Below are positions 2,041 through 55,425 of a stretch of 64,000 nucleotides of DNA, piece by piece. The notes beneath the pieces were generated by a model, which saw only the letters and a list, made by a program, of their open reading frames with translations, did no database searches and was not told where the DNA came from. The translations under genes were made by a program, and so were the position numbers. Source of the DNA: Daphnia pulex (lineage: Eukaryota > Arthropoda > Branchiopoda > Diplostraca > Daphniidae); assembly GCF_021134715.1 (NCBI RefSeq), contig NC_060023.1:11904001-11968000 (forward strand), given 5' to 3'. Numbering within the stretch: position 1 is the first letter of the stretch; each line of letters opens with the position of its first letter.

Positions 2041-2459
2041 GACCACATTTTTGTAATTTTATTTTCGTGCATCCTCGTGAGACGTGACCACGTCTCAAAA
2101 AGTGAACGTTCCTTTTCGAAACTTGTAAACGAAAATGAAAGAGTGAAAGCAGACGATACTAATATTCTAATTAGCAATGCTTTAAGATATCGATTAGAAT
2201 TTATTGTAAATCGACCTCTTTCGAAAAAAGGCGCGATATGCAAAATTGTTTCTACTTCTCAGATTCCCACTTATGCAAATGAAGTGCTAACAGAATAATT
2301 AATCGATAATGAGGGCTAACGCGGAGAGCTCATCATTCTAAAACAACCCACTCACCGCCAAGTAAAAAATTGAACCAACTAATAAATTATACAAAAAATC
2401 GATTGCTTACTTCACTTTATTTAGTGCACAGAATTAAGTGATCCAGTTGATGAAGAGCC
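2041..2459. other. Non-coding gap before the first gustatory receptor
   Basis: About 420 bases, AT-rich. Short open frames on both strands show no domain features. It should hold the 5' flank of the receptor at 2460 and perhaps the promoter of the minus-strand gene. No clear TATA box or repeat seen. Confidence 0.4.
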
Positions 2460-4026: not shown

Positions 4027-5076
4027 AGTTTAACCACGGTCTCCAAACTCACTTTTGGTTTGTTCCGTGTGCGGATCAAATCCGCCGGATTTCGCTATCG
4101 AAGCCACAGGTAGAATTCCGTTGGAGGCCGTTTTGAACGACCTTGGACAAAGTAATGTGATTTTTAAACCCACCCTCCCTCTATTGTAACAAACCGCTAT
4201 AAAACTACATTTTGAAAAATATTTCGATAGTTTCTAAAAAAAACTCCCCCTTCATTTTAATATTTTTCTTTTTGTCAATTCCAATTTTTCAGACCCCACC
4301 TTCTAATCATCTCTAATAGTGTCAACCCCTCCCCACCTCTAACATATTGTAGCAACAATTTGTCGATATATTTGTTGCCGTCAGTGTATAAATCAATCAT
4401 TTGTGATTGATTGGTTTATCATGTGAAATATTCACTGAGCCAAGACAACGAAAGGTCCGATAATTGTTATACCTACGTTCTTATTATCTACTGTCTTTAT
4501 CGGCAAATAAATTCCAGTTAAATGTTTTCCATGACTGAAATACATTGACTCACTTTAAAAATGATCGTTCAAATTCAAATTCATTACATGTGATTGGTAC
4601 TTCTTTGACTTATTTGATAATATTGTGTCAGTTCCAGTCATCAGAGCAGTAACAACAACTGATGGGCGTATACCTCTTAACAGTAACTGATCCATCGCAA
4701 AAGAAGCACTACTCCCATTTTGGACCCATTTCATAAAAATGTCATTTCTGTTATTCAATTGCTGCTTATTGTTTAGATAAATTGTTATGAGCAAACACGA
4801 ATTTTTTCTTTGCAGTCTCCTTTGTTAAGATAAATTATGAATATCCGAAAATGTCACTCATACTGAGGAGATATTATAAAGCAATTACTCAAAGTGCATC
4901 CTGTACATATTCGAATTAATTATCAACTCATCGATTCAGGACGTAGCTACTACACCAGAAACATTTCAATATAGGCCATTTGACCTTTGTCAAATGGGAA
5001 AGAAACAGAATAAAAATGACATGTTGTGCGTGTTATATATAAATGAAACGCCTTTGACATTCAGTTGATGGGAGCC
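4027..5076. other. Spacer between the two gustatory receptors
   Basis: About 1 kb of AT-rich non-coding DNA holding the 3' end of copy 1 and the promoter of copy 2. The only recognisable content is a stray receptor last exon at 4591-4652. Small open frames have no domain character. Confidence 0.6.
4591..4652 (+). pseudogene. Orphan last exon of a third gustatory receptor copy
   Basis: This 62-base stretch matches the final exon of the receptor at 2460-4026 at roughly 55 of 62 positions by eye. It still translates to IGTSLTYLIILCQFQSSEQ followed by TAA. The splice acceptor AG before it is gone (ACATG in its place), and no upstream exons are recognisable. It is a relic of a tandem duplication or of a partial 3' duplication. 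It resembles copy 1 more than copy 2 (QSSE tail). Confidence 0.8.
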
Positions 5077-6702
5077 ATGGTGTCGGTTAGGACGGACGAA
5101 TCTTTGCCTCCGTGTTTTCCGGCTTGGACTGTGGAATTGAACAATGGCGATCCTGCTGCTGTTGACGATGAGGCGCATGAAAACAACCCGTTGGTGCCAT
5201 TTCAACCTTTGATCGTTTGTCTACGTTTCTTGGGCGTCGAACTCGATCCTGCAATCCTGAATAAATCATCCAAGTCTTATCGTTACCTGTCCTGGTCACT
5301 CGGACTGTTTTTGCTGCTGTCGAATGGAATCTGCAACATTTACAATGCAATTCTGACTAGAAATCAGCTCACTGGAGATGAAAACGCAACTGTGTTATTT
5401 CTATCGTCAATGGATGGGGATCATTTGCCAATCACGAAATCCACTACGATGTCGTGGAATCTCATCATGGATTACGTCAACTATGGTTCCCTCGTTATTG
5501 GAATTCACACCTGCCTCTTCATTCTTTCTCGTCAACCGAAATGGAAATGTCTCTTGGACAATGTCCAGCAGATATTGCAAGAGTTTCCAGACTTGAACAA
5601 GACCATTCGTCGCCTCACCATCGCTGGTCTTTTCATCATTTTCTTGGTATTTATATTCAATCACAGCAGCATTTGAACATCAGTTAAATCAATAAGGCGC
5701 TCAAAGTTGATGCTGTTTTTCTTCTTATTAGGAAATATCGTTCTACGTAGGCCTGTCCTTTAGCTTTATGGAACTGAATAGTGTTGACGGGCAACTGCTC
5801 CACGATTTATTATTCGGCTGCTTTGGAAACATATTTCTATTTTACGCCTTGGCCGGTCTGTTGCTGTTTGCCTTGATTGGCTGGACGGTGGCCATGGCAT
5901 TCCGCAGCTTCGGCCAAAAACTAATTAACAAAAATTTGCCGACGACTAATACCAAAAGCAATGATGATGAAGCTTCGTTAAACGACGGTTTTCATCTAAT
6001 GATAGTCAAGTGGAAACAGCTTTACATATTATTGTGCGACACTGTGGATGGAATCAACGATTGTCTCGGTCCTGTTTTACTCATTTGGGTGTCTTACATC
6101 TTTATCGGCTTCATCGCCGCTCTGTTTTACGTTGCTGATGAAGTTCATTTTAATTCGGCATTGCTATTATATCCTAGTTGGGCCATGCTGATCATCAGCG
6201 TTGTCCAAGTGGCCCAGCATCTTTTACATTTTCTAATCATCACCGGAATTCCGAATTACATCCGCCGAGAGGTATACTATACCTACATTTATTTTTATTG
6301 CTGGTTATAGGAATGTTTAATTTCACACCTTTTTAAAAAGGCAATCAGCATGGGTAAGCTTCTAAAGAAAGTCAATCTATGCGACTCTCATCTTCAAGAA
6401 CAGGTGTGACCTAGCTAATAATAAGCTTTTGTTTGTAATTATATTAATGGCACTGCATATCAATTGTTTTAACAGGTGAACGTTTTGACGACCCAAGTGT
6501 CACTTTCCCTTCCCCGTATTACGGCGATGGAATTCGGCGACTTGAATTTATCTCTGATCCCCAAGGTATTATATCACATCCAAAAAAGCTATGACACCGC
6601 CGCAAATTAATAATAAATTTGAATTTGTCGTCGCAGTTGATCGGTACTTCGTTGACTTACTTGATTATACTGTGCCAGTTCCGGTTGTTGGAAAAGAATT
6701 AA
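5077..6702 (+). CDS. Gustatory receptor, tandem copy 2
   Basis: Exons 5077-5646, 5732-6271, 6341-6403, 6476-6565 and 6637-6702 give 442 residues. It is colinear with copy 1: the N terminus (SVRTDESLP), the block LLCDTVDGINDCLGP and the last-exon signature TSLTYLIILCQF are shared nearly word for word. The extracellular and loop parts differ, for example the stretch between residues 95 and 125 and the segment after the first intron, as expected for diverging ligand specificity. An in-frame ATG nine bases upstream (5068) would add three residues; 5077 is chosen because its CCATGG context and following sequence match copy 1. Likely expressed in gustatory or chemosensory cells, like others of its family. 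Confidence 0.9.
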
Positions 6703-19453: not shown

Positions 19454-22338
19454 ATGGCTTCAGATGATTGGAAAAGTCCCGGGTTTCGTCAAAATGTTGC
19501 TGCCAGAATGTAAAGATATTGCTGCAAACCGAAAAATGGGAATTCATTTTCTATTTGGTAATAACGTGCTTGTTTTTTCTTCTGCAGTGAAGAAGCCATT
19601 CGGCAATCTGGAAATCCCACGACAAAGACAGCGAGTGAAATGGAAACTCATTTTTTTCAGAGGGCCAATAACAAAGTAAATATTTTAATCTGTCCTGTCA
19701 TAAACAAGTGTGAGTCACTAAATTGTGAAACATAATGATAACGTTTTCCCCTTGTAGGAAGATTATTTGAATTATCTTGCTCGTCTGCTGATACACATCA
19801 AAGAATTGAGTAAGACAAAAATTTTTAGCATAGAATTTGAAAAATTAAATTACGGGTTGATTCTTTCAAGGTGCAAAGGCCCGAGCTCAAGGTGGTACTG
19901 GAGTTGGAGTTGCTGGGCCCCAGGGCAATGTACAACCGAACAATCCTCAACAGCAAGGTTTGTGATTTGTTTATGAATCTCGAAAACAATTTGTTACAAT
20001 TATTTGAAAAAAATAGGCAATATCTCACAACCTCAGATGATGAATCACATGAATGTGAGACCACAAATGATGCAGAACATGGGTGGAATGGATCAACAGC
20101 AGCAAATGAATCAAATGGCACCCAATCAGCAGCAGCAGCAGATGAATCAAATGGCCCCAAATCAACAGCAGCAGCAAATGAATCAGCAACAGCACCAACA
20201 AATGAATCAGATGGCCATGAATCAACAACAGCTAAACCAACAGCAGCAAATGAACCAACAACAAATGAACCAGCAGCAAATGAATCAGATGGGTGTCAAC
20301 CAGCAGCAGCAACAACAATTGAATCAACAACAGCAGATGAACCAGTTCAATCCCAACAACAACCCCAACATGAACATTGGCAATCCTCTGATGCAACAAC
20401 TGGGTGCCCCCAACCAACAGCAACAACAACCCCAAGGAAATGTGGTCAACAACCCAAGTTCGGCCCTCATCAGCCAGTTGAATCAGAATCAACAGCAACA
20501 AGCTATGGGTCCAATGGGTGGTGGAATGCCACGCCCTAGATTTGCTGGCCCTACAGGCGTTACGGCTACAGCCAAAATGACCCCTCAGCAGCAACAACAG
20601 GTCCAGGCTCAGGCTCAACAACAGCAACAAATTCTCAACCAGCAGATGTTGATGCAGCAGCAACGGAAGCAACAGGCCGAAATGATTCAAAATCCAACGA
20701 CGCCACAACAGTTTGTTGGCGGCCCTGGAGTTCCATCACCTGCTCAACAACAACAGCAGTCAATGCAGCAGCAACAACAACAGCCCATGTCATCGGGTAT
20801 GACGAGTCACATGAGTGCCCCATCTCCGGCCTATGTCCATTCACCTGGTAACGTCCAGTTGGTCTCCTCACCGGCTGCAGCAGCCCGAATGGGCGGCCAA
20901 CAACAACAGCAACAACAAAGAAGTTTAAGCAGTTTGTTGCCTCCACCATCGCCCAACATGATGAATGTTCCGACACCGGGAGGCGGAGGCATGTTGCACA
21001 CTCCCCAAGGTGCCGGAATGGGTGGAATGGGAATGACTGGAGCGGGAGGCGGAATGATGGGCTCCGGCGGAGGTGGAACCGAGGAGCAAATGTATTTGGA
21101 GAAGGTGAGACAGTTGAGTCGTTTCATCGAGCCGCTGACGTGCCTCATCGGCCGCATTGGCGACGTGGATTCCGAGAAGTTGAGCAAAATGAAAATCATG
21201 CTGGATATCCTCTCCAACCCGTCGAAAAGGATGCCGATGGATACGCTACTGAAATGCGAGGCCGTTCTAGAGAAAATGGATTTCAAAAAGGTAAATTATT
21301 CACAATTTCTGGTTTTTTTTAAAAATATTATAAGAATTAATTTTTCGTAGAGTGAATCCGGAAGTGTGGCACCTCCTTCGGTGGCTTCCGTACCAAGTTT
21401 GGGTGTGGCCGTACCAGTGAGTAAGTAAAATTTTAATAAATATAATTTTAATTAAACATTAACTCGATCATTTTAACTTTCCAAATCTCTCAATTAACTA
21501 TAAATAACGATTCCAACACCAAAGACAACCCACCTGCTGCCACTCCGCTCCTCTCTCTGTTGGAAACGATTGCCAACCAGGTATAGACTCGAAATGCACT
21601 CGCATGTACAATTCAATTTTAAGATGAATTTTATTTCTTAATAGGCTCGATCCCCCTACATCAATCATACCCTCCAGCGAACATTCGCTCCTGCTGTCAA
21701 TTCCTTAATAGGTTGCGACATCGCAGCTCCGGCGGCGCCCAAGAAACGCCTTGATTCCGCCGACGATGACAAGGCTGATGAATTGATGTACACGATCGAG
21801 AGAGAAGTGGCTAATCTCTACCCTCGTTTCAAGGTCTGCCCCCAAGAATTTCGACAGTAACAATACAATTGCACCATTGTGACTGGATTGCTATTATTAA
21901 CGACTTGCAGGTTGATTTGGACCAATTGCATTTGTTTGGCTCGCAAGATTTACACCTGATTTGTCGACTGGAAGACAAGTATTTGCCTTCGGTTCCATCT
22001 CTGCGCATAGTTGTGCCTCGTGACTACCCCCGAACGGCTCCTTTTTGCGACAGTCGCCAACCCGATTACGGTAACCGTGAAGAAGTTGTTGTTGTTGTTG
22101 CTTCTCGTGTGGCATTTGGTTCATTTTTTATTTTAATTTAGATGTCAGTGGCTTCACCCGGACCGTGCTGCAGGGTTTGAGCGATCGATTGCGTCACATG
22201 CCGCATCGCTTCACCGTCAGCCAAATTTTGAATTGTTGGGAGATGGCCCTCCGCCACGCCTGCAAACCTTCCAACAGCAGCAACGACCATGCAAGTAATA
22301 GGGACGTTAGCGCCCTAACCGTCGCTTTAGGAGTGTGA
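19454..22338 (+). CDS. MED15: Mediator complex subunit 15
   Basis: Ten exons: 19454-19509, 19588-19675, 19758-19809, 19871-19957, 20017-21290, 21351-21420, 21525-21580, 21645-21833, 21911-22070 and 22142-22338, giving 742 residues. The N-terminal KIX domain (residues 1-70) has SPGFRQNVAAR, EEAIRQSGNPTTKTASEMET and DYLNYLARLLIHIKEL; it binds activator peptides in the Mediator tail. Then comes a very long Gln/Met/Asn-rich region with repeats such as MNQMAPNQQQQQMNQM, and Gly/Pro-rich spacers. The conserved C-terminal part starts near YLEKVRQLSRFIEPL and ends with the Mediator-association region (LDQLHLFGSQDLHLICRLED, then a helix with SDRLRHMPHRFTVSQIL). Introns are short except within the last third. 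Glutamine runs make this a length-variable locus. Confidence 0.95.
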
Positions 22339-25485: not shown

Positions 25486-28400
25486 ATGCATTCGACGTAC
25501 GTCAAAATGGCCATGGATCGCCAGCGGGCCGAACTCCGCCACCGGAGGAACCGACGGCTCCGATCTGCTATGGTTCTCAAGAACAAATTGAAAGACTGCT
25601 GCCGAAAAATCACCGCCTTCTTCTTCACTCAAGTACAAATTTAATTATCCAATTATTACACATTTTTTGTGGGTGGTCGATGGAAGAATAGGAAATAATA
25701 ATGATAATCGGCGTGATTTGTTGGAGATGATTAGATTGGAGTTTGTGGACTTATTGTCGGTTATACAATCGTCGGCGCCTTCATGTTTATCGCCCTGGAG
25801 GCGGAAGCCCAGCATCCACTGACACAGCAAGTCATTACTCGCCGTCGATCCTGCGTCGACTACTTGTGGAACAGTAAAATCCCGTTTCTTTCCATCAATA
25901 AAAAAGAGAATTTCCCATTAATTTTTCTGAATTTTGGTTTGACAGTTACCCATCACCTCAATGTCCTGAATTACGACCAATGGCGACAGGACGTCAATCG
26001 CACCGTTTTCGAGTAATAACAAAATCCTTAACAAAAACTTTTTGATTTACGTAACTTTTTTTTTAAATTATTGGGAAAAAAATAAAGGTATCAAGCGCAA
26101 ATGGTGCGTCACATCCGGCGCGGTTACGACGGCACCGACGAGAATCCCTTGTTGATGCGCTGGACCATTCCGGCGGCTTTGATGTATTGCATCACCATTT
26201 ACACGACCATCGGTAACAACGTCAACCCCTTTTTTATTTCTTTTCATTATAAGATCATGGAACACATTTTCTTGTCATGTCGTCGCTTAATTTTTTCTGC
26301 CGGGCAAACAAACGGGCGAAAACAATGTCCAGCAGCAGAAAATAAATAAATTGAGCGCCAGCAAAGTGAATGGGGTGCCTAACGAGTTGAATGAAGGAGA
26401 GTTCATTTGGAATCAAAGTTGATTTTGTTAAGTTGGGAGCGTCGCCAAGTTTGTTAGGCCACCGCCGCCGGCGGATAAATGACATGTGAAAAGATAAAAA
26501 GTTTGTGTGTCTGTGCAACATTTTTCGCCGCTGATTGCCGCTCGGCCAAAGGAGTTCCGTCTCGGGCGTCAAGTGGAAACGCCCATCAAGAGCCTTTTCT
26601 TTTTTACCCCCTCGTCCGTTTATCAACTTTTGTCCGTCCGTCCGTCTCAGTGTGTACAGACGGTGGCGTGGGCGTCGGCCAGAGAGAAAAGAGACGGGCA
26701 ACAAACTTTGCTCAGGAGAAACTGGAAATAAAGTTGTGTCCGTGTTATTGTTACATCTCGCCGGATCTGCACGATATAAAAATGCTGTCAAAATGAGCGG
26801 CTGGCCAGGCAGTTCTTTCAGCTCTTGTTTAGATCCCCATTCCCCGCACGTAAAGGATGCGCCGAATCCAGCGGGATCAGCGCGAAACACAGTCGATATT
26901 CACCACCAACGAGCAACTTTCTTATTTGGCAGAGTCGGAAGAATCTATTGGCAATTTCTTTTTTTTTACGGATTGACTCGGCCATCGATTGATTTTCTCT
27001 CTCGCCCAGGATCCAGCAACGACGTATGGATCAGACAGAAAAGCAGCAGTCCCCATAGATTCTCCCATCAAATTACCATCGTCGACATTTTCTATTTCTT
27101 GGGTCGCCTTTATAAACCGGAGAGAGGAGAGAAAAATCTATTTTCAGTCCGGCCCGTGTGTGTCTGCTGGCCCGTCTCTCTGAGAGAGGAGATGTTATGG
27201 GCAGGGATGAAAGTTTATTTAAGGACTGGCGGCAGCGGCGGCCGCTGTCCCGGCAATAAAAAATAGGCCAGTCAATGGCGGGACGGGAATTCTGTTGTTG
27301 TTGTTGTTGTTGTTGGACAACGCCAATAATTAACTTTGCTCATCACTCGACGTGTTGTTTTTGTTGTTTCAGGTTACGGCAACTTGACGCCGAGAACTGC
27401 CGGGGGTAAATTCGCCGTAAGTAATTTTGATTTATAATTAATTACACCAAATTGTTGAATTAACTTTGATTGTGTTTTTGTATAGACGGTGATTTACGCC
27501 ATGGTGGGCATCCCGCTCATGTTGCTCTACATGGCCAACGTGGGTGAAATCCTGGCGACATCATTTAAATTCACTTATAAGAAAATGTGCAAGTGAGTTG
27601 TTGTTGTTGATTTTTGACATTTCATATAAGGGAAATATCCCACATGATCAGGGGGGCGTTGCCTCTGCTCCTAATGGGTTTGGCACATTACTTTGACTGT
27701 CCCCCCCGGCCCAGTCCGGCAGACACACTTTTTTGCCCGTCTATATTTGTTTGGATAAGTTAACGGGAGAGCGTGGGCGTGACGTGTTGTGGCCCGTTTC
27801 GTTCTTTTTTTTTGTGTGTTGGTATTTAGGAGATTTATGGCTCCTAACAATCGTCGGCTCAGCGCTCCTTGCGACAGCTTGTTTAATGTTTATGCGCCTG
27901 TTGACTGAACGTTATTCATCGCTTGTTTGGATGGAAAATGTCGTCAATGCGACGTTTTGTGTGTGTTACTCCTCCCCCCTTGCTGGATTCGATCACAAGG
28001 ATTCTATTTTTGATGAAGGATTTTTTATCTCTTGTTTTTAGATGTCCAAGGAGGCGGAGGAGGGGTCAGTTGACGCCGGAAGTGGCCACCATTCCGGTCA
28101 GTCAAGAGCCAGTGAGAGACAAGAAGCGGAAGAAACATAAAACGGATCCAGCAGCGACCATCACCGTCTCGGTCATTCCGGTGGAGCCGGCGGAAGAAGA
28201 CGATCCGACCGCTTACGATCCGCAAACAGTTTCCGTCACCAGCTGTCTGGTCGTCATGAGCAGTTTTGTGATTGGTGGCGCCATCCTCTTTAGCGTGTGG
28301 GAGGTAACACAAAAATAAAAAAGGAAAAACGATCCTCATTTTATTGATTTTCACTTTTTTCTATTTTAAAACACATTTTTCAACTGAATCTTTTTCCCTC

Positions 28401-28767
28401 TCTCTAACTCGTAGGGCTGGGGCTATGTGGACGGATCCTATTTCTGTTTCACCAGTTTATTGACGATCGGCTTCGGAGATTTCGTTCCCGGTCAGACGAT
28501 CGCCCATTCACAGGACGCCGTCGACAGTAAACTCATCATGTAAAGTTACAATTTGGATCTAGAAAAATTGAAATCAGGATCTTTTTTTAAATCTTCAATT
28601 TGGTCCATTATTTTTGCAGTTGCGCCGTGTATTTGTTACTGGGCATGGCCCTGCTGGCCATGTGTTTCAACTTGATGCAGGAATCGGTTTTCATGAAAAT
28701 CAAACGACTCGGACGACGGCTGGGTTTGCTCAGAGACAGATCTGCTGCTCCTGCTGCCTCCTCCTGA
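25486..28767 (+). CDS. Two-pore-domain potassium channel (K2P), canonical filters
   Basis: Nine exons: 25486-25632, 25735-25873, 25946-26012, 26088-26212, 27373-27416, 27486-27592, 28042-28303, 28415-28539 and 28620-28767, giving 387 residues. Order: basic N terminus, M1 (about 50-72, GLIVGYTIVGAFMFIALE), extracellular cap with VTHHLNVLNYDQWR, pore 1 with TTIGYGNLTPRT (about 157-168), M2, a basic cytoplasmic loop (RRRRRGQL and DKKRKKHK), M3, pore 2 with LLTIGFGDFVPG (about 313-324) and M4. It would conduct background K+ current as a dimer. The intron after exon 4 splits the filter glycine codon of pore 1 (phase 1), a position I know as conserved in this family. Closest named subfamily not decided. 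The C terminus is short (about 25 residues after M4). Confidence 0.93.
26213..27372 (+). other. Large intron inside the K2P pore-1 codon
   Basis: The 1160-base intron interrupts the GYG codon of pore 1. It holds two long overlapping open frames on opposite strands (26535-27266 plus, 26255-26890 minus) with no domain character and frequent Ser/Arg/Pro, which I read as composition effects. A GTT run lies at 27293-27315 near the acceptor. Confidence 0.6.
27293..27315 (+). repeat. (GTT)n microsatellite
   Basis: About eight GTT units, in the K2P intron some 60 bases before the acceptor. Similar GTT/CAA runs recur near 34163, 34523 and 34680. Confidence 0.85.
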
Positions 28768-29057
28768 TGCTCCTGCCAAATTCAATCGTCGTCCATATTG
28801 TTTTTCATCTTTTCTTGTTATTGAAAATGTATTGTCGCATAACAGTTTCTTTCCACATGTGCCGCCTTGCAATATATAATATCAAAACGACACTGTTGAC
28901 AGTGCACACGCGGGCGCAATATTACGACTGGGCGAGAGAAAAAAACACGGAGAAAATGGATTTTTATACAACGAGGAAATGGACAACAAAGAAATCAAGA
29001 AAGAAAAACAAATTTTTTTTAAATCAATTTTTTGATGCAGGTGGAATTTTATTTTGT
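28768..29057. other. Convergent 3' ends of the two K2P genes
   Basis: 290 bases between the stop codons of the two tail-to-tail genes. It holds both 3' UTRs, A- and T-rich on each side; long antisense transcript overlap is likely. Confidence 0.5.
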
Positions 29058-31349
29058 TCAGGAGCGGAAGCTGCCGGATCTTGAGCGACGACGCGTGCTG
29101 TCGCTCTCGGCTGATGGATCGCACGGACTGGCCGACGACGTCCACTGAGCCAGGAGCCACTCGTAGATCAAATTGAAACAAATGGAGCACAACGTCAGAG
29201 CGAGGAAAATGTAAATGGAAACGGCGACCAGCGGCCAGGATGATTGTCCGCTCCAGACGGCCGAGTGGGCGTCGGGAATGCCCGTTGTCGTCAGGAGCAT
29301 GAAACTGAGCAAAAGGGCGTCGGTGGCCGGCAGAGACATGAGGAAACTGAAGAGCAAAGTGCCGCAAGCCACGAACAAGAGGACCAGGATGAGGCAGAAA
29401 ATAGGCGGCCAAAAGGATCGGATCCTGCCGACGAGTCGGCGGTAGTCTGCGCTGCTGCTCGACGTCGACGACGTGCTGGCCTCGATCGATTCGTCGTCTT
29501 TGACGACCACCGACGATTTCATCGGCTGCTGGTGGTGGAATAACAATTCGTTGGCCGGCTGGTGGTGCTGGTGGCTAAAGGACGTCGAGTCGTGACGGGT
29601 CGTCATCACTACCGCCGGCACGGCCGACATGTGACTGGACCCGTGCTCCCGCCGACGTCTGCCACCACCGCCTGTTTTCCGCGAATTCAATAATGGGCAG
29701 CACATGAGGCAGGAGGACAGAGCCGATCCCACGACTGTCAGATAAAACAGGAGCAGCGGGATCCCGAAAGCGGCGAAAAGGATCGTCAGGATTTTGCCTT
29801 CGTTTGATTCGGGAATCACTGGACAGGAACCTGCGACCAGGAGGAAAAGATCAAAAAGACACACAAATCAGCACATTTTTTTTATCATGGGGCGTATGCA
29901 AATGATTGCAGAGAATATATAAGATGTAATAATAATATTCATATGATTACTCGAGGGTGGAAATTACAATAACAAACAATCTGGCAACCATTTCTTTCTC
30001 CCGCTCGATGCTTTTCATTTGTTGATATTGTATAAACACAAACACCACTAGAGTAGTCGTCTTTTTTTCGGTTGAATGATATGAATATAAACGTGAAAAA
30101 GGAAATCGATTTCCTTTTTCTTTTTCTCTTCTGTTTGTTGTTCAAACCCTTTGAATGTTTGAATAGAGTTTCGGTTCCTCGTGTGTGTCTGATCTCGCTA
30201 ACTGACGAACAAAAGACGCATGGAAGCCGGAGGGGTTTTTTCTTCTTGTTTGAAGAGTTTTCGTCTTTTGATGCCAGTCAGTTTCAAAAAGTTATATATA
30301 TTTGCACACACAACATCTTCTCGTCGTTGACTCACTGGGTAATATGTAGTAATCATTCAAGTTTGTGTGCTCTAATATTTCAACGTCTAAACTTTTACGT
30401 AAATGTGTTGGGCATTATTCAGACATTCAAGTTTTGGAACTGGTGTTTGAGTGTCTACGTCAACAAGGGAACTTCCCCCCAAAGATTAATTTGTAGCTGC
30501 TCTATATATTTACTTGTGTGTGTGTCATATCCCGGTTGATTTCCAGCACAATGTCTGCAACGGCAGAGCTATATACAGCCTGAGAGAGCTTTATTGTATA
30601 CACATGTGAATGATAGAATGTTGTTTTGTTGCAGGTTGTTATTGTTGTTGGCTCCTGCAATATGTCTATAATCCTTTAAGACTCCACTTACCCAGAGTGG
30701 TGATGACGGAGAGGGCATACAGGAAAGCAGTTGGGTAATTCCACTTGACAGCAGTTGTTGTCTGGCGATTGTGTCCAGCAGCAGTTCCAGCAGCTCTTGG
30801 AGTAGCTGCCGTTGTTGCCTGTCCGACCGCCGTCATTTCCTGGGATTTTCGCCGATCGTTGCTGCAATCCTTCTTCATCCAGAGATACATGGTCTCGTGG
30901 AAACGGTAAATCTCGCCGGCAGCCAATCGAGTCCAGTTCTCTTTGTACAAAATGTTGAGATTCTCGGTAATGTCCCACAGTTTGTCGAGCACTTGACGGG
31001 TCATCAACTCCTTCATTTGCGTCACATCTTCGCCGGCAGCCCCGTTATCAGTCGTGATGGCCGTAGGCTCCGACGTGGTCGACAGCCCCGTTCCACTCAA
31101 GGCCGTCCGGATCTCCTCGGTGGGTGGCGTGTGCTGATGGAACGGATGGGAAGCCGACGACGACGACGCCTCGATCAGCATGAAGACGTAGGCGCCCAAC
31201 GAGACGTAGGCCAGGAAGAAGAGCATCAGTGAAAGTTTGGCCGACCAACCCCGGGAGCAGTCGGTTGTCCTTCCGCCACCACCGCTGGATCGTCGAATTT
31301 GCTTGGAAGGTAATTGCCTTTTCAAGCTGCTGCCCCCGCTGTTCTCCAT
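29058..31349 (-). CDS. K2P-channel-like protein with both selectivity filters altered
   Basis: Minus-strand exons 31349-30692 and 29830-29058 give 476 residues. Basic N terminus, M1 (about 37-59, LSLMLFFLAYVSLGAYVFML), a long extracellular cap with sequons (NWT near 138), pore helix FLYALSVITTLG, M2 (EGKILTILFAAFGIPLLLFY), a long Ser/His/Gly-rich cytoplasmic loop (about 270-355), M3 (FCLILVLLFVACGTLLF), a second pore helix (LLLSFMLLTTTG) and M4. The K2P plan and the EGKI, GIPL and LLFY landmarks are kept. The first filter reads TLGSC in place of TIGYG and the second TTGIP in place of TxGFG. The sole intron is phase 1 in the pore-1 glycine codon, the same place as in the canonical neighbour. 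Likely a membrane protein that cannot pass K+ in the usual way, perhaps a regulatory partner. Confidence 0.85.
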
Positions 31350-32541
31350 GGCTCCTGACGCGAGATCTGCATAATTCCATCGAAAGGTTCAGTCATGTGT
31401 GCCGGAGGTTTTATTCTTGTTCAACATAAATTTCCAGCGACAAAGACGGAAATAACATTTTCACGCCCGGATGACTCTATAGGAGGAGGAACCCAAAAAA
31501 CCATCCGACGACTCAATCCAATTATGTTCGTGTCTTTATCTTTTAGCTCCTTGTTATTAACAAGATTTCCTCGCTTCCCATCTGAAAATTTAAATGGGAA
31601 ATGCTGGGCGGATGAGAGAGAGACACCCAATTACTGGGCATCTTTTTTTCTTCCGCCGGAGTATAACAAAAAAGAAAAGAAGAAAAAAAGGTGAATGGAA
31701 AACAACAAGCCAATTGGAATGAATATGCTGACGCTTGTATGATGCTGATTAAGATAGAACTTTGTGTGTCGGATGTGAGCCAGTGAAATCGGATGCTGGA
31801 AGGGACAAGTAGTTAATGAGCCAGCGCCAAAGAGATAGATAATAACACGCACACTGCTCGACTGGGTCCCTCCTAGTACTCATTAGTATTATAATATCCA
31901 AAAGTGTGCCACAGGGAGCAGCTCAACTACTACTACTACCCCTGGCAGACAGACAGAGTTGCAGCTTGTGCACATATCACTAGTAGGGTAGTTGTAGTTT
32001 GGTAAGGGGGGGGGCTCCTTTTGATTCTCCAGGAGAGAGAGCTCCTGTACTGTTGTATTAATAAATGCGTATAGCCAGAAATCTATCTTTATTTGTCGGC
32101 TAATAGTTTCCTGCTGGATTATTCACGCAGGAAAATGGTCTATTTTAACTCTTTTCTTTTTTCTTCTTTTCCAGCAGATTCCCAGGAGGAATTCCCCTCG
32201 CACACTCTCTGGCAAGAACCCGATAAACCCTTTTTGCCGAGAGTCTAGGCCCGTAACGTTTATTATCACGGCCGGCGTTCCCTTAAGGGGAGGAAATTCG
32301 CCTCCCGCCCAAGGAATCACGAAAACCGGAAAAAAAAAAGAAAAATTCGGATCCTAATGGATCAACTTGACCCTACGCGTTCAACCCCACCGTTTTTCTC
32401 TGCGCGTCACCCGTTGTCGTGCGGTTTTTCCCGATCGGGAAAAAAGTCAAATGGAAAGGGCAACCGGATAGACTGTCAAGTTGATAGAGCCCCCCCACCA
32501 CCCGCTCCTACCCCACTGTGTACAGACATGAACCGAGTCGG

Positions 32542-34905: not shown

Positions 34906-37467
34906 TCAGACTAGGATCGGCTGGGCCTGACATTGCGCGTTCTGGACGACGCATTCCCTGGAACAGTAAATCTGCCCGTTCTTCAAAATGAATTGGCGAT
35001 TCATCATCGACACTTGACATTGGCGACATTTGAAGCAGCTGGCCGTGTTGTGCCAGTTCATTTCGCCGTGACTGACTCGCGTTTCTTCCGCACGGATCGG
35101 CCTGTGGCACTCGTAACAATCCTGTTTGTTCCGGGTTAAAAAATTCCAGTTAAATCAAATCATTTCATATCGTATCCAGATGAGGTTTTACCTTTCCGTA
35201 TTTCTTTTGGTAGCAGTCGAGACAGTGCGGCTGGCCCTCGATCGGCGTGTACTGGTGTCCGGCCAAGGGCGTGTCGCAGATCCAGCAGCAAAAGTGATCC
35301 ATGTGCCAGCTGGCCCCTTCGGCGCTGGTGTATTCCGGGGCGAAAATCAACTCGTCGCAGGCCTTGCACCGCGGGATCTTCATCTGCTCGGCGTAGTGAC
35401 GGCCACAGAAGACGTCGTCGTCGACGAAAAAGTAAATCAAATCCGCCAGCATTTCCTGTTTCGTACGGCAAAAGACAGAGACATCTAGGAGCCGTTTTGA
35501 GAATCTAACAGGGAAATAAAACTTACGTGGCAGATGGAGCAGACGAAACATTGCGGATGCCAACACTTGTCGCTTCCGGCTCTCTCGGCGAAAATGGCAA
35601 TCGTTCCGGGTTCAATCGGCTGGGTACATTTGCGACAGGACCAGGCTCCTACCAGTCCTTCAGGATCCTGAAACACTTCCTGCTGTTGCTGCTGCTGGAT
35701 GGGTCCTCCTGCTGCAGGTATTTGGGCAGTCACGTATTTGTTATTATCGGATCCGCACGGATGGGAATGGGCGGAGGGGCGCCGATTAGACAACGGCGAT
35801 TGATTGTTGTTGTTGTTGCTTTGGTTTTGGATGGTAGGAACAACTGGATTGTTGTTGTTTTGGGATTTCGCCACTTGCTCTTCCGGGAAGTAATCGAAAT
35901 CGGTCGTCAACAACTGACGGCTGCCGTTGTTGTTGTTGTTGTTTGATAATCTTCCAGTTGGTCCCGAGACGGGCGGCGCCCGTTCTCCTAATCTCGGTGA
36001 GGAACCGCGACTTCCCGTTCCAGCGACCGCAACGGGGGCTGCCAGTCCAACTTTCGTATTAGGATTTCGTTGATTCAAATTGGGCGACGTTCCAGGCGAC
36101 GCTCCAAACGGTTTGGCTGTGGCGTTGAACGTGCCGGAAGCGGCCGCCTGGTGCAAAAACGGCGATTTCAATTTGCCCGGCAATTTCTTGCCTTCCTGCT
36201 CGTCCAGGAAATCGAAAAATTCCCTCACTGGATCCTGTCGCTTGTTGTGGCTGGATTCCTCCGCCAGCAGTTCATCCACCACCAGTTGAGGAGGCGGAGG
36301 TGGCGGCGGAGGAGGAGTTTCAGGAGCAGCAGCCGGAGCTGGATAGGACGCATCCATCAGCAGCATATCCGGCGGCGGAGGAGGTAAATCGCCGAATTCG
36401 GAACTCATTCCGGCGTGGGGTTTGGCCGACATCCGCTTGATCTGTTGCGCCGACGGAGCATCCGCTTTGATGGCGAACGGCTTGGCCGTGACGAAGGCCG
36501 GAAGAATGGGCCGTTTGGCATTGGCAGATTCCTGCAAACTCAAAGTGTTGACTTTCTCGCCCAGGATGCGGTCGAGTTGCGGCGGCGGAGGCGGCAGTTT
36601 CCCCGATGGTCTCGGTGGACATTCCTGGATCAGACCTTGACCCACTACGTGTTGCTTGACGTTCTTGACATACTCTTCCATCCTGTCGGAAGAATTCAGG
36701 TCATTAATCAACTTTTCTTTTTTAATTTGAAATTTTAATTATTTTAAAAGGCGGAATTACTTTCGTTTCTCGTTGGCGGATAGGTTGGAACATTGTTCCG
36801 GATCGAGGTCGTGCGACGGTAATTGTCGGTCGAGGGCAATTTTGCGGTCGACGGCCGCCTGACTGCCCGTAATGGGCTGCTTAGCCAGCGGAAGTTGTTC
36901 CATGTATTTGATGGCCAATTGAGAGTCGTCGGTCGGTGGGACCCAATCCAGCGGACTGGCCGGGGCATCCAAAGTGACAGCCGATCCCCTGGCGGGACTA
37001 TTGAAATCCAATTTGGACGGTCGGTTGCTGCTGGCGAGACCATAGTCTCCGCCTTGTTGTTGTTGTTGGAGTTTCAAGTCCATTTTAGCTTGGAATGGAG
37101 TGACGGCCAGTAACCGGATCAATCGGATCGACGGGTCCTCATCTACCACATTGTGGACCTCCTTACCGCAACGACAGTGACGACAAACTTTCCTAATTTT
37201 TTAAAATTCAATTATTAATTCAATTATCAATAAAAATTTCAATCCGAAAATTTACCTCCAGAAATGTAAATCCAGCCCTGGACATTTTGGCCCGCATTTG
37301 GTGCATTGCGATCCGGCGCCTTGTTCGTGGGCGATTTTCGATTGCTACCCAGAAAAACAAAAGAGCATCGTGGTGAGTCATTCAAAAAGAAAACAAAGAA
37401 AAAGAACTCGACTAACCTGTCTGGTTTTATTTTCCAGGTTCAAGAGATTCATTCCTGGGACGGCCAT
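34906..37467 (-). CDS. TES: Testin (PET and triple LIM domain protein) with a long linker
   Basis: Minus-strand exons 37467-37417, 37344-37256, 37192-36761, 36682-35527, 35455-35192 and 35121-34906 give 735 residues. The N-terminal Cys-rich module (AHEQGAGSQCTKCG, LDLHFWRKVCRHCRCG) and the PET domain (about 118-205: PLDWVPPTDDSQL, YMEQLPLAKQPITGS, LDRQLPSHDLDPEQC) match vertebrate testin closely. Three LIM domains fill about 536-735, with CRKC, CKACDELIF and CYECHRPI starts. Human testin is 421 residues. Here about 330 residues lie between PET and LIM1, rich in Pro runs (PPPPPPPPP), Asn runs, Gln runs and Ser. Testin sits at focal adhesions and binds zyxin, Mena/VASP and actin; the Pro-rich linker may add EVH1 or SH3 sites. 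It ends PILV. Confidence 0.93.
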
Positions 37468-47800: not shown

Positions 47801-50800
47801 ACCAATTGATAACACAAATATCAATCCCGGCTTTTTATCTCTCCTCTTGAGCGAACCAACTGTCTTTTATTCTGTCTCTCTATCTGCTTTTCCCCTCTAC
47901 TTTTGAACGGAATTTATGAAAAAAATAAGCGACGATCGAAAAAAGGATTGTCCGTCGTCGTCGTCTACTAATCAGCCCCTAAAAACTAACTCTCAAATAA
48001 CAGCTTGTGCTCCAGTTGTCCATGGGCTCTCTCTCTCTCCCGTCTTTTTGTCTTGTCTCTTGTATGCGCCTATGAACCTCTTGACTCTCTTTTTTTTAAT
48101 CTTATCTTTCTGTGTATGTCTTTTTTCTGGCCTCTACGAAAAAATATCGTCTGCCGACTTTTAAAGTCCTTCAAACCGGGACAGACGCAAAATGAGGTGA
48201 ATTTCAGACACACAATCCATCGCTTTTCCATTCACAATTTTTTTTTCGTGTCTTGATCTCTTCCAATTTTCCGTTCGTCTTTGCGTGGGGTCGGATGCTA
48301 AAATTCATATGCTGGTCTCGTTTCAAAACTACTACCACTACTACCAAACACACTGCTCTACTTGCTGCTCCCTATGCCTCCTATGCGCTTTAGACGTTGG
48401 CTTTTTGGAATCTCCCAACCAACCAAAAAAAAAAAAAATGAATTACGCGTGCGATAATCCAATTGGGTTGCCATACACCTCCATAACGAATTGAAGCTTG
48501 AGAAAACCTATCGTGGCTTGGGTGCTATATAAAAAAAGACAATGCTTGCTGTTTTTTTGTTTTTTATTTCGACTAACGTTCTTGTTTTTAAATCAAATGT
48601 CGACGTGATAACTTTGAAATTAATTTTGTTTTTTTTTTCCTTTTTTTCTTTCTCTCTTGTCTCGGGTTTGAATTGGCCCGTCGTCTTGTGTGTTTGTTTG
48701 TGTGATTGTGTAAAGAGCGGGAACGGCGAATCCGACGAGTACAGGTGGCGCCACCACACCGGCACCAGCTCCAGCCCTGCCGACTTACCAGCGGAGCCAG
48801 GCGGCTCTCCGTGGGCCCGCCAGCCAACAAAGTCAGCAGCAACAGCATTCCAATCACGGCATGAACTCGAGTGGCAACAGCAACAGCGTCGGACCATTCA
48901 CGCTGGCTTCGCCGGCTTCGGTTGCCCCGCCAACGCCCCACTCTCACGCTCCGCCCAGCGTCCCGCCCATGGGTAAATTGACTCGCTACAACTTTGTTTT
49001 GACTGTCTTTTCTAACCACCACCACAAAAAATGAAATGTCATAATCATTTGTTGATTGTCGTCGTTGTAGATTCGTCGCTTCCGTTGTCGAGTCCTCATC
49101 CACCAGCATCGAATGACCCATCGTCCAACTTTATCCCGTCGACACCGTCGGCCAGCGACCATAACATGACGTCGCAGGATCAGAACTGCAGCCGAGCCAC
49201 TCCTGGTGGAGCGGCCCACACTCCGGGTGGTGGACCTAAATCGAATCAAGCCGCCTATTCGCCTTACGTTGCCCTGCCGAGCGTCGACACCCCCGGTTGG
49301 CCACACTCGGCCGGTGGAGGTGGAGGCAGCGGCTCTTGTCACGCCACTCAGCCGCGCAGCAGTGCCGGGCAGCAGCCCGCCAGTTGTGGCCCTGCCACTT
49401 CAGTGGCCCCAACGACACCCAACGTCGGCGGCGGAGGAGGAAGTGGTGGCGAAAGAGCCAATGGCGGTGGAAGCACCTGCTCCACTGCCGATCTCTATGG
49501 AATCAAAAAGATTGTACTTCCTCAGAAAGAGTACGAGGAAGAACTCAAGGAAGGAGAAACCGCTCCTGGTCTGCTCTACGATTACAGTAACATGACGGCC
49601 TGGTAATAGACATGTCAGATTTTTCGTTTGTGCAACGTTTCATTCATTTTGTTTTGTGCACAGGTTGTTTCATCCGGTCAAGCGAATGAAAGTAGGCAAC
49701 AACTCCTCGAATGGGGACCGACCAACGGATTCCTCTGACGGTGGATCGTCTTGTAGCGGGAAGCAGATCAACGGCAACTTAATGGTAAGATGTTGATTCG
49801 TTTCTCTTTGAATGGCCATTTCTAAAGGAAACGTGTTTTTGAATTGACAGCTGGACATGGAAGCCAGAGATGCGATCGAGTACGACGAGGATGGCGTCCA
49901 CAACGGCCAATCCCGCAAGAGGAAGGAGCCCGACTCTGGTCGCGACGAGGACAGCAACTCGTTGAACTCGGCCAACGCAGCCGGTGGAGCAGCTAAACCA
50001 GTGAATCCAAGTTCGCTCTTCACCAGCGAGGGACTCCAGGCGTCCTATCAGGACTTGGACAAGATTTTCGACAATTCAGACGAGTCGAACGACACGTGCC
50101 CTGTGCCTACGCCGCCCGGATCGAACAAACCGGCCGGACTCCCAGAAGACACGGCTCTCATGGGACACGGCCACCACAAAGCGCCGCGTGGTGGCATCAC
50201 GGCAGCTCACCCGTCACCAGGAACGACCATGCTGGGCGGTCACCACTTGACGGCCGGTGGAGTCAACATTTTGGCCTCGGCCGAATTCTCCAACATGTTC
50301 CCGACGCCGCCATCTCACGAACATCCCATGCAATCGCCGTGCGGACAGATGGAAGGATCGGTGGATTTGTTGGGCGGCGACATGAACAATTCCGGGCACA
50401 ACGGCATCAAGAGTGAGCCGGGCTCCGGTCACTCGCTCAACGGCTGCAGTCCGACATATCTACAAGAGGACAGCGCTAACAAGGACTGGTCCTACGTCTA
50501 CCGCCCACCCACTGTCTGGAAAGTTGCCAATTCCTCCAAGTACGCGCCGCTTCCGATCCTGCCCAGCCAGACGATGAGTCCTTTATTCCTACCCGCGCCT
50601 TACCGGCCCTCTAGCAGCAGCAATAGCTCGGCCAATCACTCGTCGGGAATTGTGGAAGTGCCTCGCGGACCCATGATGCAGCAACAACAACAACAACATG
50701 CCTCGATCCGGCCGTTCCAGCGGCTTCAGTCGATGGTGTCTCCCATGCAGCAGCATTTCTCACGCGGTTCCGGTCCGGCGCCTTTCAGCCCCATCTCTCC

Positions 50801-53800
50801 GTCTCCGTACGGCATGGATGGTGGGCCGCCGCCTTTCGGCGGTATGCCCGGCCACGGGCAGATCCAGCGCCCTGGAATGAACATGGGCGGTTTCCCGCCT
50901 ACACTGAAGCAGCTGCTGCAACCTCAACAGGGTCAGGGTCAACCACCTGGGTTTCCTCAGCACCAGCCTGGATTCCCGCACCACCATCCACCGCAGCAGC
51001 AACTCCAGCTGCAGATCCAGCAGCAGCAGCAGCAACAACACCACCACCAACAACAACCGCAATCGGTCAACAACAGCAACAACATGAGCAACCACTCGAA
51101 CTTGCCCGAATGCCATTCTCTGATGGTGAACATTGTCCTGGGCGACTCGATGCTCAACATCTTCCGCGATCACAACTTTGACAGCTGCACCGTTTGCGTT
51201 TGCAGCGACGGACAGAATTGGGTGGGCACGATACGCGGGCAAGACGCCGTGTTTTACCTTCCAGAGTCGTCAAACGCGCGTTCGTCGTCGATGCGAGCGT
51301 TGCCCAGCTCATCGCAATTCCCCGGAATGGGTGGCGGTCCAGGCTCGTTGGGTCTGCCTCCTCCGCCGATGAACAACCTGGAGGAGGAAAGCTGCCGGTG
51401 CAACTGCGGGTTCAGCGCCCTGGTGAACCGCCACCTGGCCCATCAGGCCGGCCTCTTTTACGAAGACGAAGTGGAGATTGTTGGCGCCAACGCCACCCGA
51501 GATCCCGGCCAGTTTAAGCGCGGCTCCCTGTACGCCGTCTGCCACTCATCGGATAAACAGGAACAGCAGATGCTGATGCGATCTCGCATGCTCGACTGCG
51601 GACCCGGCCTTTCGCTCTACGGCCCGGAAGCCAACGGCAAAACTCCGGGCGGCAAAGGCGGCGACAAGGAGCCAGTGGACAAGGGCGACATCATCAGTCA
51701 GTCGATCGCTGCCGTCGTCATGGAAGCCTCGGCCCCCTTGGTCGACACGTTGCCCGTCGCCTTGATGGAACTGCTTCGAGAGCAGTGCCTGCTGGTCCAT
51801 CACTCGAGCAGTCCACTCTACCGGGCCGAACAGTTGCAAGCGGCCACGAGGAAGGCCTCCCTTTTGCACGCCCTCGACTACTCTGACGGATGCGAAACGG
51901 CCCGCAATGCCTTGACGTTAGCCTTACACAACAATTCTCCGATGCCCATGGCGTCTCCTGTACACCAGCAGCAACCTCCGCCACCTTACCAGCAACAACA
52001 ACATCAACAACACCAACAGCAGCAGCAACAACAACAACAGCACTGGAATAACGGACCTCAAACTCCCAATCCGTACGGTGGCATGTCCTTCAACCCAGGC
52101 ATGGGCGGATTTCAGGCAGGTGGACCTGTCGGTGGTCCTGGTGGCCCAGGATTCCAGGGCCCCAATTCCGGAAACATGCACCTGCCAATGAGTCCTTCGC
52201 TGCACAGTCCGACGATGCCGGTTCGAGGGAGACCGCCAACCCCGGCGTCCGTGGGCGGCATGCCGATGCCCCTGTCGAGTCCGGTCGGAATGGCCATGGC
52301 GCAAAGACAACCTCATCCTTCTCACGGAGCACATGGGCACTCGACCAACCATCCGTCGACTCTGTCTTCCGGCAACAACGGACCCATCGTCCATTATTGG
52401 CCGTTTTTGCACGTCCAGGGCCCCAATTCCAGCCAGGACGTGATCCGCGTCATGAGAACGTTGCAGCCGCTCCTGCAGGACAGCATCCAGAAGAAGAGGG
52501 CCGCCTCATTGTGGAGGGCGCCGTTCGCCGTGCAGGGTCCTCTGACTTGGCGTCAATTCCACCGGATGGCCGTTAGAGGCACGGAAGATCGTTGCGAGCC
52601 TCAGCCGATCCCTTCGGTCATGGCCGGCTACGATCGCGATTGGGTGGCCATCGGTCCGCTGGCCATTCCACACTGGGACCGGCTCCTGCTGGAACCTTAC
52701 AGCCGCCAGCGTGACGTTGCCTACATTGTTCTGGCTCCCGAAATGGACTACGTTTTGTCGCGGACGAAAATCTTCTTCAAGGAGCTCTCGGCCACCTACG
52801 AGATGTGCCGCTTTGGCCGCCACGTTCCCTACAAGGGCCTGCGGGACGGCATTCTCCGCGTGGGCAAGAGCGCCGCCGCCAAGCTGGCCAACGACGCGGT
52901 CGACGACTGGTTCAGCAACATCGGCGACTCGCCCATCGCTTCCCTCCTGCGTCTCTACGCCAAAGTCTGCCGCTACCATCTAGCGCCGACTCTCATTAAT
53001 ATGCCGATGGATCGAACTCTGCTCGATCCACCCGCGCCACCGTCATCCAATCGACCCATGAACGCCGTCCCGTCGCCCATGGCGCCTCCATCCACCACGC
53101 CCATTCATCCGGGCGATTTCGGCTCGGCCACTCAGAGCGGCATGGGACCGCCGAATCCGGGCGGATCGACGCCTCTTCAGGGTTCCTCCACATTCGGCGT
53201 CCATCACACGTCGACACCATCGTCCGGCATGACGTCATCGGACGGTAAGCCGACTTCCCCCAAAACGGAAGACGGTGCCGATGGAACGTCGGGTCACGGG
53301 GCTTCCGGTGCTACCGACGGATCGGCGGCCGATGACGAGGAGGTCGAACCTCCTTCCATCGTCATTTACATCGTGGATCCGTTCAGTTTCGGCTCGGACA
53401 ATTTGGACCTCGGGCGGTTGACGGCGTTGGGTCTTTTGCGTTGCTATCACCAAATGTTGTCGCTCCTTTCGGAGACGGTCCAGCTCAACGTGTCGCTGCA
53501 ATTGATTTCCGCCGACGCCATCCTCCAACTGGGCAAAGACGTGAACGGCGCCTCTCGCTACGATTCGCTCCGATCGCTGGCCCTCAACGTCTTTTCGCAG
53601 TGCAAGAAATTAATCTCACAGCCGTCGAACGTCAAATCGCTGACGGGATTCGGTCCGGCTGCCGCCTCTGACACGTTCCTCAAAGCCAAAGACGAGAGGA
53701 ATCGTGCTCCTTACAGGGTCTACATCCCGGCCTACGTCCTGGCGCCGACCAAAGACAGGACGGTCTGCGACCTCGATCCAGGCGTGTCTACCAACGGAGG

Positions 53801-55425
53801 GCCCGGCAGTGGCCCACTGTCATTCTTGGCCCGGCCCGACAAGTATTCCGTCCTCTACGTCAGCTACTGCTTATCAGAAGATCAGCGCTGGCTGATTGCC
53901 GCCTGCACGGACGAGCGCGGCGAGCTGGTTGACAGCTGCACCATCGGCATCGACGTCCCAAACCGAACCAAGCGGAAACGAGTCTCAGTCAGGCGGTTCG
54001 GGCTCCAGCGGCTCATGGATTTCATTCTGGGCGTCATTTCCACCGGAGTTCATCCGTGGAGGCTCGTCATTGGCCGCGTAGGTCGAATGGGCCACGGCGA
54101 ATTGAAAAGTAACAATCTAATTTTTAATTTCACCAATCGGATGGATTTTTAAAATGTCAATCTTTTATGTGTTTTCGCCACAATAGGTTGGAGCGCCCTG
54201 CTGAGTCGCAAAAATCTGTTGAGAGCCTCGCGACATTTGGCCGACATTTGCGGCCAGTGTTCGCTCGTGTTCCCTTCGCAGGCGCCCACTTTAGTGTCGG
54301 CCTGTCTGGTCTCGCTCGAGCCGGACTCTCACTTCCGCATGATGCCGGATCAAGTGACTCCTGACGAGCGTTTCGGTCAGCAGTCAGCCAACAGTCACCT
54401 GTCGACACCCGAGGACGCCTCTTGCACTCACATCCTCGTTTTTCCCACGTCAGCTACCACTCGAGTAAGTCGTCGTTTCTGCTCGCCTGAAGGAAAGGTG
54501 TTTCTTTTTTTATTCTAACTTGTTTATTCTTTTTTCTTACGCAGTCTCCTCAGACGACGTTCCACGAGGAAAACATCAACGGACCCGATTTGGGAGATGA
54601 CGATCTGCTCTCTGCCCTCAACGACGACATGGGCGACGGATTCGAGGGGATGAGCGGCTTTGACGACATTTTCATGACGTGGCCGGAAACGGACCAAGTC
54701 AATGACGGCACCGACGATTTGACGTCGGACATAACGGGCGGCAACAACGGCGGGATGAACAACATGGGCGGTTGCGGAACTTCTCGGTCACCTGGAGCTT
54801 CGCACGGTGGCGGCGGTGGAGGTTCGCCCGGCCGTGGCGGCATGCGCTCCAACATGAATCCCGAGTCGCCGTCGGGCATGGGCGGACACCACCACGCGGG
54901 CGGTTCCGGGCGGCAGAGTCCGCGAGCGGAGCAGGAGGAAGTGGGCACGCTGCTCCAGCAGCCACTGGCCCTCGGCTATTACGTGTCGACGGCGCCAACG
55001 GGCGACATGCCGTCCTGGTTCTGGTCTTCGTGCCCTCATTTGGCGCGTGCCTGCCCGGCTTTCCTCAAGTGCGCACTTCACTTGCACAACCACGCCGTCC
55101 AGCAGAATTCGGACGACATCCTCCTGCAGCAGCAGCAACAGCAAGTCAACAACTCGTCAAAGGTGCATCCGCTCGACTCGCAAGTCACGACGGATGTCCT
55201 CAGGTACGAAACGAATCTTTCTTTTTATAAATTGGGATGAGGTCGTGGGTCACGTTGGTATTGATTATTGATTTCGATTGGAAACCCCAAAGGTACGTCA
55301 TGGAAGGTTACAACGCCCTCTCTTGGCTGTCGCTCGATCCCAAGTCTCGTGATCGCCGCTCTTGCCTCCCCATTCACATCCAGCTCTTGGTGCAGCTCTA
55401 CCACGCCTTGGCTGCTTTAGTCTGA
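44803..55425 (+). CDS. MED13: Mediator complex subunit 13 (kinase module)
   Basis: Thirteen exons: 44803-44871, 45294-45811, 45872-46158, 46238-46585, 46646-47087, 47335-47673, 48716-48972, 49071-49602, 49664-49784, 49851-54108, 54187-54464, 54545-55203 and 55293-55425, giving 2746 residues. The N-terminal domain has [49 protein letters not shown] and [17 protein letters not shown] long Ser/Gly/Pro/Gln-rich middle follows. The MID/PIWI-like part starts near [20 protein letters not shown], and the conserved C-terminal domain has [35 protein letters not shown] and, at the end, [19 protein letters not shown]13 joins the CDK8, cyclin C and MED12 module to core Mediator. One exon is 4.26 kb. The fourth intron (46586-46645) is 60 bases without an in-frame stop. 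Confidence 0.96.
47674..48715 (+). other. Largest MED13 intron
   Basis: 1042 bases, T- and CT-rich, between a Ser-rich exon and an Ala/Pro/Gln-rich exon. CTACTACTAC runs near 47718 and 48330 and long T tracts near 48630. No nested gene seen; it could hold an enhancer but nothing specific shows. Confidence 0.6.

Follow-up and report, generated by a model that had tools for sequence, protein, structure and literature searches.

K2Ps of animals are regarded as leak channels for potassium and are defined by two TxGxG filters. A gene of Daphnia pulex, described in a sequence-only reading as K2P-like with both filters lost, raises the question of whether such a protein is in decay, conducts other ions, serves as a partner subunit or has taken up another role. 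An intact K2P without both filters would offer a natural experiment on the role left to the fold once conduction is gone, be it dimer control, altered selectivity or signaling, and here a canonical relative with a common cap motif adjoins the gene, making a partner hypothesis directly testable with two genes. The window, i.e., the whole stretch of DNA that was analyzed, comprises 64,000 nucleotides (NC_060023.1, positions 11,904,001 to 11,968,000), and all coordinates refer to it.

Gene structure and the altered filters

The gene consists of two exons on the minus strand, running from 31349 to 29058, and encodes 476 codons followed by TGA. Recomputation of the exons (31349-30692 and 29830-29058) reproduces the coordinates, strand and length given earlier. 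The features of the gene and of its neighbor are as follows.

30692..31349, minus strand: exon 1, open from the ATG through 219 full codons and one further base, with the GT donor at 30691; encodes the N-terminus, M1 and the cap region, then pore helix 1 and the beginning of filter 1, ending on the first base of the Gly220 codon
30692..30701, minus strand: 5' part of filter 1 (T217, T218, L219, first base of G220), codons ACC ACT CTG G, followed by the gt of the donor
29831..30691, minus strand: intron of 861 nt, GTAAGT...GCAG, phase 1, within the codon for the first glycine of filter 1
29058..29830, minus strand: exon 2, an open frame; completes filter 1 and encodes M2 (with EGKI and GIPL), a long loop on the cytoplasmic side, M3, the P2 region including filter 2, M4, the C-terminal tail and TGA
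29820..29830, minus strand: 3' portion of filter 1 (the remaining two bases of G220, then S221, C222, P223), GT TCC TGT CCA
29433..29696, minus strand: M2-M3 loop, about residues 265-352 of the translation, long and rich in Ser, His and Arg
29271..29288, minus strand: filter 2 (T401-D406), codons ACA ACG GGC ATT CCC GAC
25486..28767, plus strand: canonical K2P gene, the convergent neighbor, nine exons and 387 amino acids in a GT-AG exon model that is less secure at the first exon and the start codon

Filter 1 of the protein reads T217 T218 L219 G220 S221 C222 P223, compared to T-T-I-G-Y-G-N in the neighbor, while filter 2, in the TTTGIPD region, reads T401 T402 G403 I404 P405 D406, compared to T-I-G-F-G-D. 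The translation thus bears out the loss of both canonical filters (TTLGSC and TTTGIPD): the first glycine is kept in each and T-x-G remains, the aromatic residue and the second glycine are gone, and neither P1 nor P2 carries a filter of the TxG[YF]G type (TTLGSC, TTTGIP). Judged by its filters, the predicted protein falls outside what defines a K2P channel. By the cheapest route among the allowed codons, a minimum of 10 changes in the 39 filter nucleotides, i.e., at least 0.26 per base, is needed to turn canonical codons into the present ones.

Because the codon of the first filter-1 glycine is interrupted by the intron, an alternative acceptor was sought that could supply a canonical filter, the outcome that the sequence-only reading had named as contradicting it. 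Of the AG acceptors whose phase matches the known donor, none within 28900-31400 of the minus strand gives G-[Y/F/L/I/M/H]-G upon joining, while 14 such acceptors occur elsewhere in the window; on the sequence side, an alternative exon supplying GYG was accordingly rejected. It is very improbable, on these sequence grounds, that an error in the gene model or the assembly conceals canonical filters. Besides the missing acceptor, filter 2 sits midway in one long open exon, and a single sequencing error cannot explain the filters, because both differ from the canonical ones at several codons.

The signs expected of a pseudogene, a broken frame or broken splice sites, are absent, as all 476 codons are open and the intron is of the GT-AG type. 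In first-order Markov sequences of the same composition, read in the fixed frame, exon 1 stays open in 8 of 5000 cases and exon 2 in 43 of 5000. The codon-usage score ranks the true frame at the top of the sense strand for both exons; since one antisense frame of exon 2 scores slightly higher (0.366 compared to 0.335), the coding bias is not decisive. The GC content of the intron is 0.37, compared to a GC3 of 0.71 in the coding sequence. An AATAAA hexamer at 29048-29053 on the minus strand starts five bases past the stop codon, so the gene may have only a very short 3' untranslated region.

K2P ancestry and the canonical neighbor

The membrane plan is that of a K2P. Hydropathy places hydrophobic stretches at residues 37-62, 230-267, 355-389 and 416-447, which we take as M1-M4, and a further one at 207-225 in the pore region, so that a single chain combines four membrane segments with two pore regions; the cores of the membrane segments are uncharged. 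Pfam Ion_trans_2 matches residues 200-258 with an E value of 4.7e-12, across the exon junction. This is the only stretch that Pfam recognizes, i.e., one pore domain and not both. The best PDB match in phmmer is KCNK4 (E 2.3e-11), to which the protein aligns in order, P1-M2 with 25.1 bits and M3-M4 with 18.5 bits, M1 weakly with 3.7 bits. The P1 alignment is free of gaps, and the M3-M4 segment by itself matches KCNK4 weakly (E 2.3e-4).

The EGKI and GIPL landmarks named in the sequence-only reading are found at 230-233 and 242-245, respectively. The latter forms the GIP hinge in M2, which together with the Leu three residues on corresponds to the pattern described in PMC6377628. Single-sequence AlphaFold2 models place the M2, M3, P2 and M4 helices in exon 2 (mean pLDDT 56.5, pTM 0.33) and helices where expected in exon 1 (mean pLDDT 52.3, pTM 0.27), both with low confidence and too weak to carry weight.

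The adjacent canonical K2P reported earlier is there. Its filters are TTIGYGN and TIGFGD, its Ion_trans_2 match has an E value of 3.1e-30 (in a 389-residue approximate version of the sequence), and the stop codons of the two convergent genes are 290 bases apart. The alignment of the two proteins (E 7e-19) covers 436 positions, of which 94 (22%) are identical. K2P genes commonly have a phase-1 intron that interrupts the codon of the first filter-1 glycine, and the neighbor, the one gene used for this comparison, has its intron 26213-27372 in the same filter-1 Gly codon and phase as the altered gene. A tblastn search of the whole window with both proteins, at E up to 1, detects no K2P loci beyond these two.

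A further tie lies in the cap. In K2Ps, the cap is built by two M1-P1 linkers together (PMC4726246). The corresponding linker of the present protein is 140 residues long (62-201), compared to 69 in the neighbor, and the two have the motif LW.IT..LN.L....W in common, with an alignment score of 68 against 24.8 +/- 4.5 for shuffled sequences (0 of 2000 reaching it); by this motif, the extracellular cap between M1 and P1 appears to be present. A KCNK2a cap resembles neither, as its score is reached by 846 of 2000 shuffles for the altered protein and by 984 of 2000 for the neighbor. The cap cysteine of the neighbor, Cys89, aligns with Val120, and the cap disulfide at this site is therefore not conserved; TASK channels lack the cap cysteine as well (PMC4726246).

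Taken together, the Ion_trans_2 and KCNK4 matches, the similarity to the neighbor and the cap motif uphold the K2P plan claimed for this gene and, at the level of sequence, make it a K2P homolog by descent. It is a diverged paralog that probably belongs with the convergent neighbor in one subgroup, which we infer to be an invertebrate one; the cap motif may mark such a subgroup, and the pair possibly represents an old inverted duplication.

The surroundings of the pair were also scanned. Out of ten other frames of the window, six have a Pfam match at E 0.001, with 7tm_7, galactosyltransferase, LIM, immunoglobulin, YIF1 and Med13 domains. This set is consistent with animal DNA, and the 7tm_7 match points weakly to an arthropod. 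Two similar multi-membrane proteins are encoded in tandem on the plus strand at 2454-3617 and 5047-6310; the former weakly matches the chemosensory receptor family 7tm_7 (E 4e-5, which misses the cut-off of that family), and the scanned part of the latter (5047-5676) has no Pfam match. The region 35165-36738, upstream of the altered gene and on the same minus strand, holds a proline-rich frame (35485-36738) and, after it, a LIM domain (E 7.7e-14 in 35165-35611). On the plus strand, 49848-54152 is a Med13 exon (MID_MedPIWI, E 1.7e-51; Med13_C, E 6e-29). The Gln-rich frame 19977-21350 we take to resemble Med15; if this is what it encodes, two Mediator subunits would lie within 35 kb.

Erosion of the pore, decay and possible function

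The two pore regions have fared differently outside the filters, where we compared the columns that are invariant in five PDB K2Ps and the neighbor. Around P1, 8 of 11 such columns are kept and the other three are conservative replacements (T to S twice, Y to F). Around P2, the count drops to 2 of 6, with E, W, Y and V lost, and pore helix 2 lacks the conserved tryptophan and tyrosine. Since, in addition, Pfam is silent on P2 and the phmmer match there is weak, P2 must be regarded as eroded beyond filter 2 and more widely than held in the sequence-only reading, whose statement that the pore helices remain stands for P1 and only in part for P2. From its sequence, pore helix 2 persists merely as a hydrophobic stretch.

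Such erosion, together with the failure of Pfam to detect P2, would suit a gene in decay, whose pore function was lost recently, whose frame is still unbroken and which has no present function. Relatives are also missing where they were sought, namely in viral and prokaryote contig collections rather than animal ones: none of the pattern matches was confirmed for exon 1 (6 in viral contigs) or exon 2 (4 in viral contigs, 35 in prokaryote genome contigs), which has little meaning for an animal gene. Against decay speak the open codons with the GT-AG intron, the uncharged membrane cores and the extent of the filter changes, which exceeds what a frame could be expected to survive under neutrality. 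The latter was estimated by simulating neutral drift as point changes from the present frame, with 2000 runs per rate and before any indels. At 0.02 changes per base, 695 of 2000 frames are still open; at 0.05, 0.10 and 0.15, the number falls to 154, 21 and 5, respectively, and at 0.23 and 0.42 it is zero in each case.

Because the filters have accumulated at least 0.26 changes per base, the frame would be expected to be broken had they and the rest of the gene drifted neutrally together. The 10 or more changes beside an intact frame thus argue against simple neutral decay, on the assumption that filter and frame were equally exposed to drift, in a gene that was chosen for its changed filter. 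A burst of filter change followed by a very recent loss of function is possible and compatible with the drift result. The earlier judgment that the gene is not simply decayed hence gains indirect support from the open frame, the uncharged cores and the simulation, the last of which holds under shared drift. We consider decay rather unlikely.

If the protein is functional, the filters suggest that potassium-selective conduction has probably been given up. The aromatic residue and the second glycine of the filter are needed for the usual outer potassium sites. With Ser-Cys and Ile-Pro in their place, the outer (S1-S2) sites would not be built in the usual way, because all four filter strands of a homodimer would lack both residues.

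One possibility is that the protein forms, as a dimer, a cation channel whose permeability is altered and probably non-selective, with the inner sites (Thr and the first Gly) kept and the outer ones lost. The T-x-G in both filters and the gap-free alignment of P1 to KCNK4 are in line with this, and CNG channels likewise lack the Y-G after T-x-G. NaK (TVGDGN), which has only the S3-S4 sites, is described as non-selective (PMC9822992). In the same motif, however, the second Gly is still present in NaK (PMC9822992). In the present protein, a regular filter seems unlikely because Pro takes the second-Gly position of filter 2 and the aromatics of the P2 helix are lost. By analogy with these channels, conduction of this kind is conceivable, yet quite doubtful.

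The reading that we tentatively prefer, while giving it somewhat less than an even chance, is a non-conducting, K2P-derived dimer subunit. The protein would still fold as a four-helix K2P subunit and dimerize through the cap and the membrane helices. In the simplest version, it would pair with a canonical K2P such as the neighbor and silence or retain its partner; an action on the neighbor may proceed through the shared cap. The K2P homology, the shared filter-1 intron and cap motif, and the open frame despite the filter changes all point in this direction. The erosion of P2 beyond the filter, which would also fit relaxed constraint, speaks against it. Pairing with the neighbor specifically is disfavored by the overall identity of 22% and by Val120 at the cap cysteine site.

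Other properties of the chain would suit a homodimeric membrane protein that is not a channel and reuses the fold as a receptor, a scaffold or an intracellular membrane protein, with no canonical K2P partner. These are the long M1-P1 linker, the long Ser/His/Arg-rich M2-M3 loop and the basic stretches at 166, 277 and 466, which could be retention signals. On the other hand, Pfam recognizes no added domain, and nothing ties the protein to any ligand or pathway, and from the sequence we find this alternative unlikely. A more far-reaching proposal is that of a conserved K2P-fold dimer in which the Gly-Ser-Cys and Gly-Ile-Pro filters would create a new route that does not carry potassium, or else a mouth for sensing ligands, i.e., a repurposed fold; such a role would be quite unlikely as well.

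Comparison with known systems

Among the matches listed in a search of the open-access literature, judged mostly by titles and the openings of abstracts, no animal K2P without both filters was recognized, which is weak evidence for novelty. The Daphnia K2P inventory in PMC3879215 names five members, Dpul_TWIK, Task6, Task7, Ork1 and TRESK. Zebrafish CNGK was considered as a case of a non-canonical filter and set aside, as the motifs described for it in PMC4749565 are canonical GYG or GFG.

The canonical K2Ps, represented by KCNK4, KCNK10, KCNK2 and the neighbor, have the same membrane plan as the present protein, with two pore regions, the M1-P1 cap linker and the M2 GIP hinge. They differ in the aromatic residue and second glycine, which its filters lack, and in the conserved W and Y, which its P2 helix lacks. 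CNG channels, which belong to a different family, resemble it in keeping T-x-G while the outer filter is changed. The same holds for NaK (PMC9822992), also from a different family, which has a second glycine where the present protein has none.

Among the silent mammalian K2Ps, KCNK7 in particular serves as a precedent and, like the present protein, is a K2P by sequence. KCNK7 deviates in filter 2 only, whereas both filters are altered here; a title from Salinas 1999 reportedly speaks of a "unique pore structure". In the relevant passages of PMC8616229 and PMC5428834, KCNK7 is described as having no proven conductance and as located mainly in the endoplasmic reticulum.

Arabidopsis KCO3, a relative of the two-pore potassium channels, provides a precedent for a modulator with a dead pore. 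According to the account in PMC7757853, KCO3 lacks its first pore and has no channel activity of its own, although the pore that is left is functional in engineered versions; the gene is stated to be no pseudogene, root growth is reduced in the null mutant, and a modulator role has been proposed for the protein. The whole first pore is absent in KCO3, while the Daphnia protein keeps both pore regions and has its filters altered.
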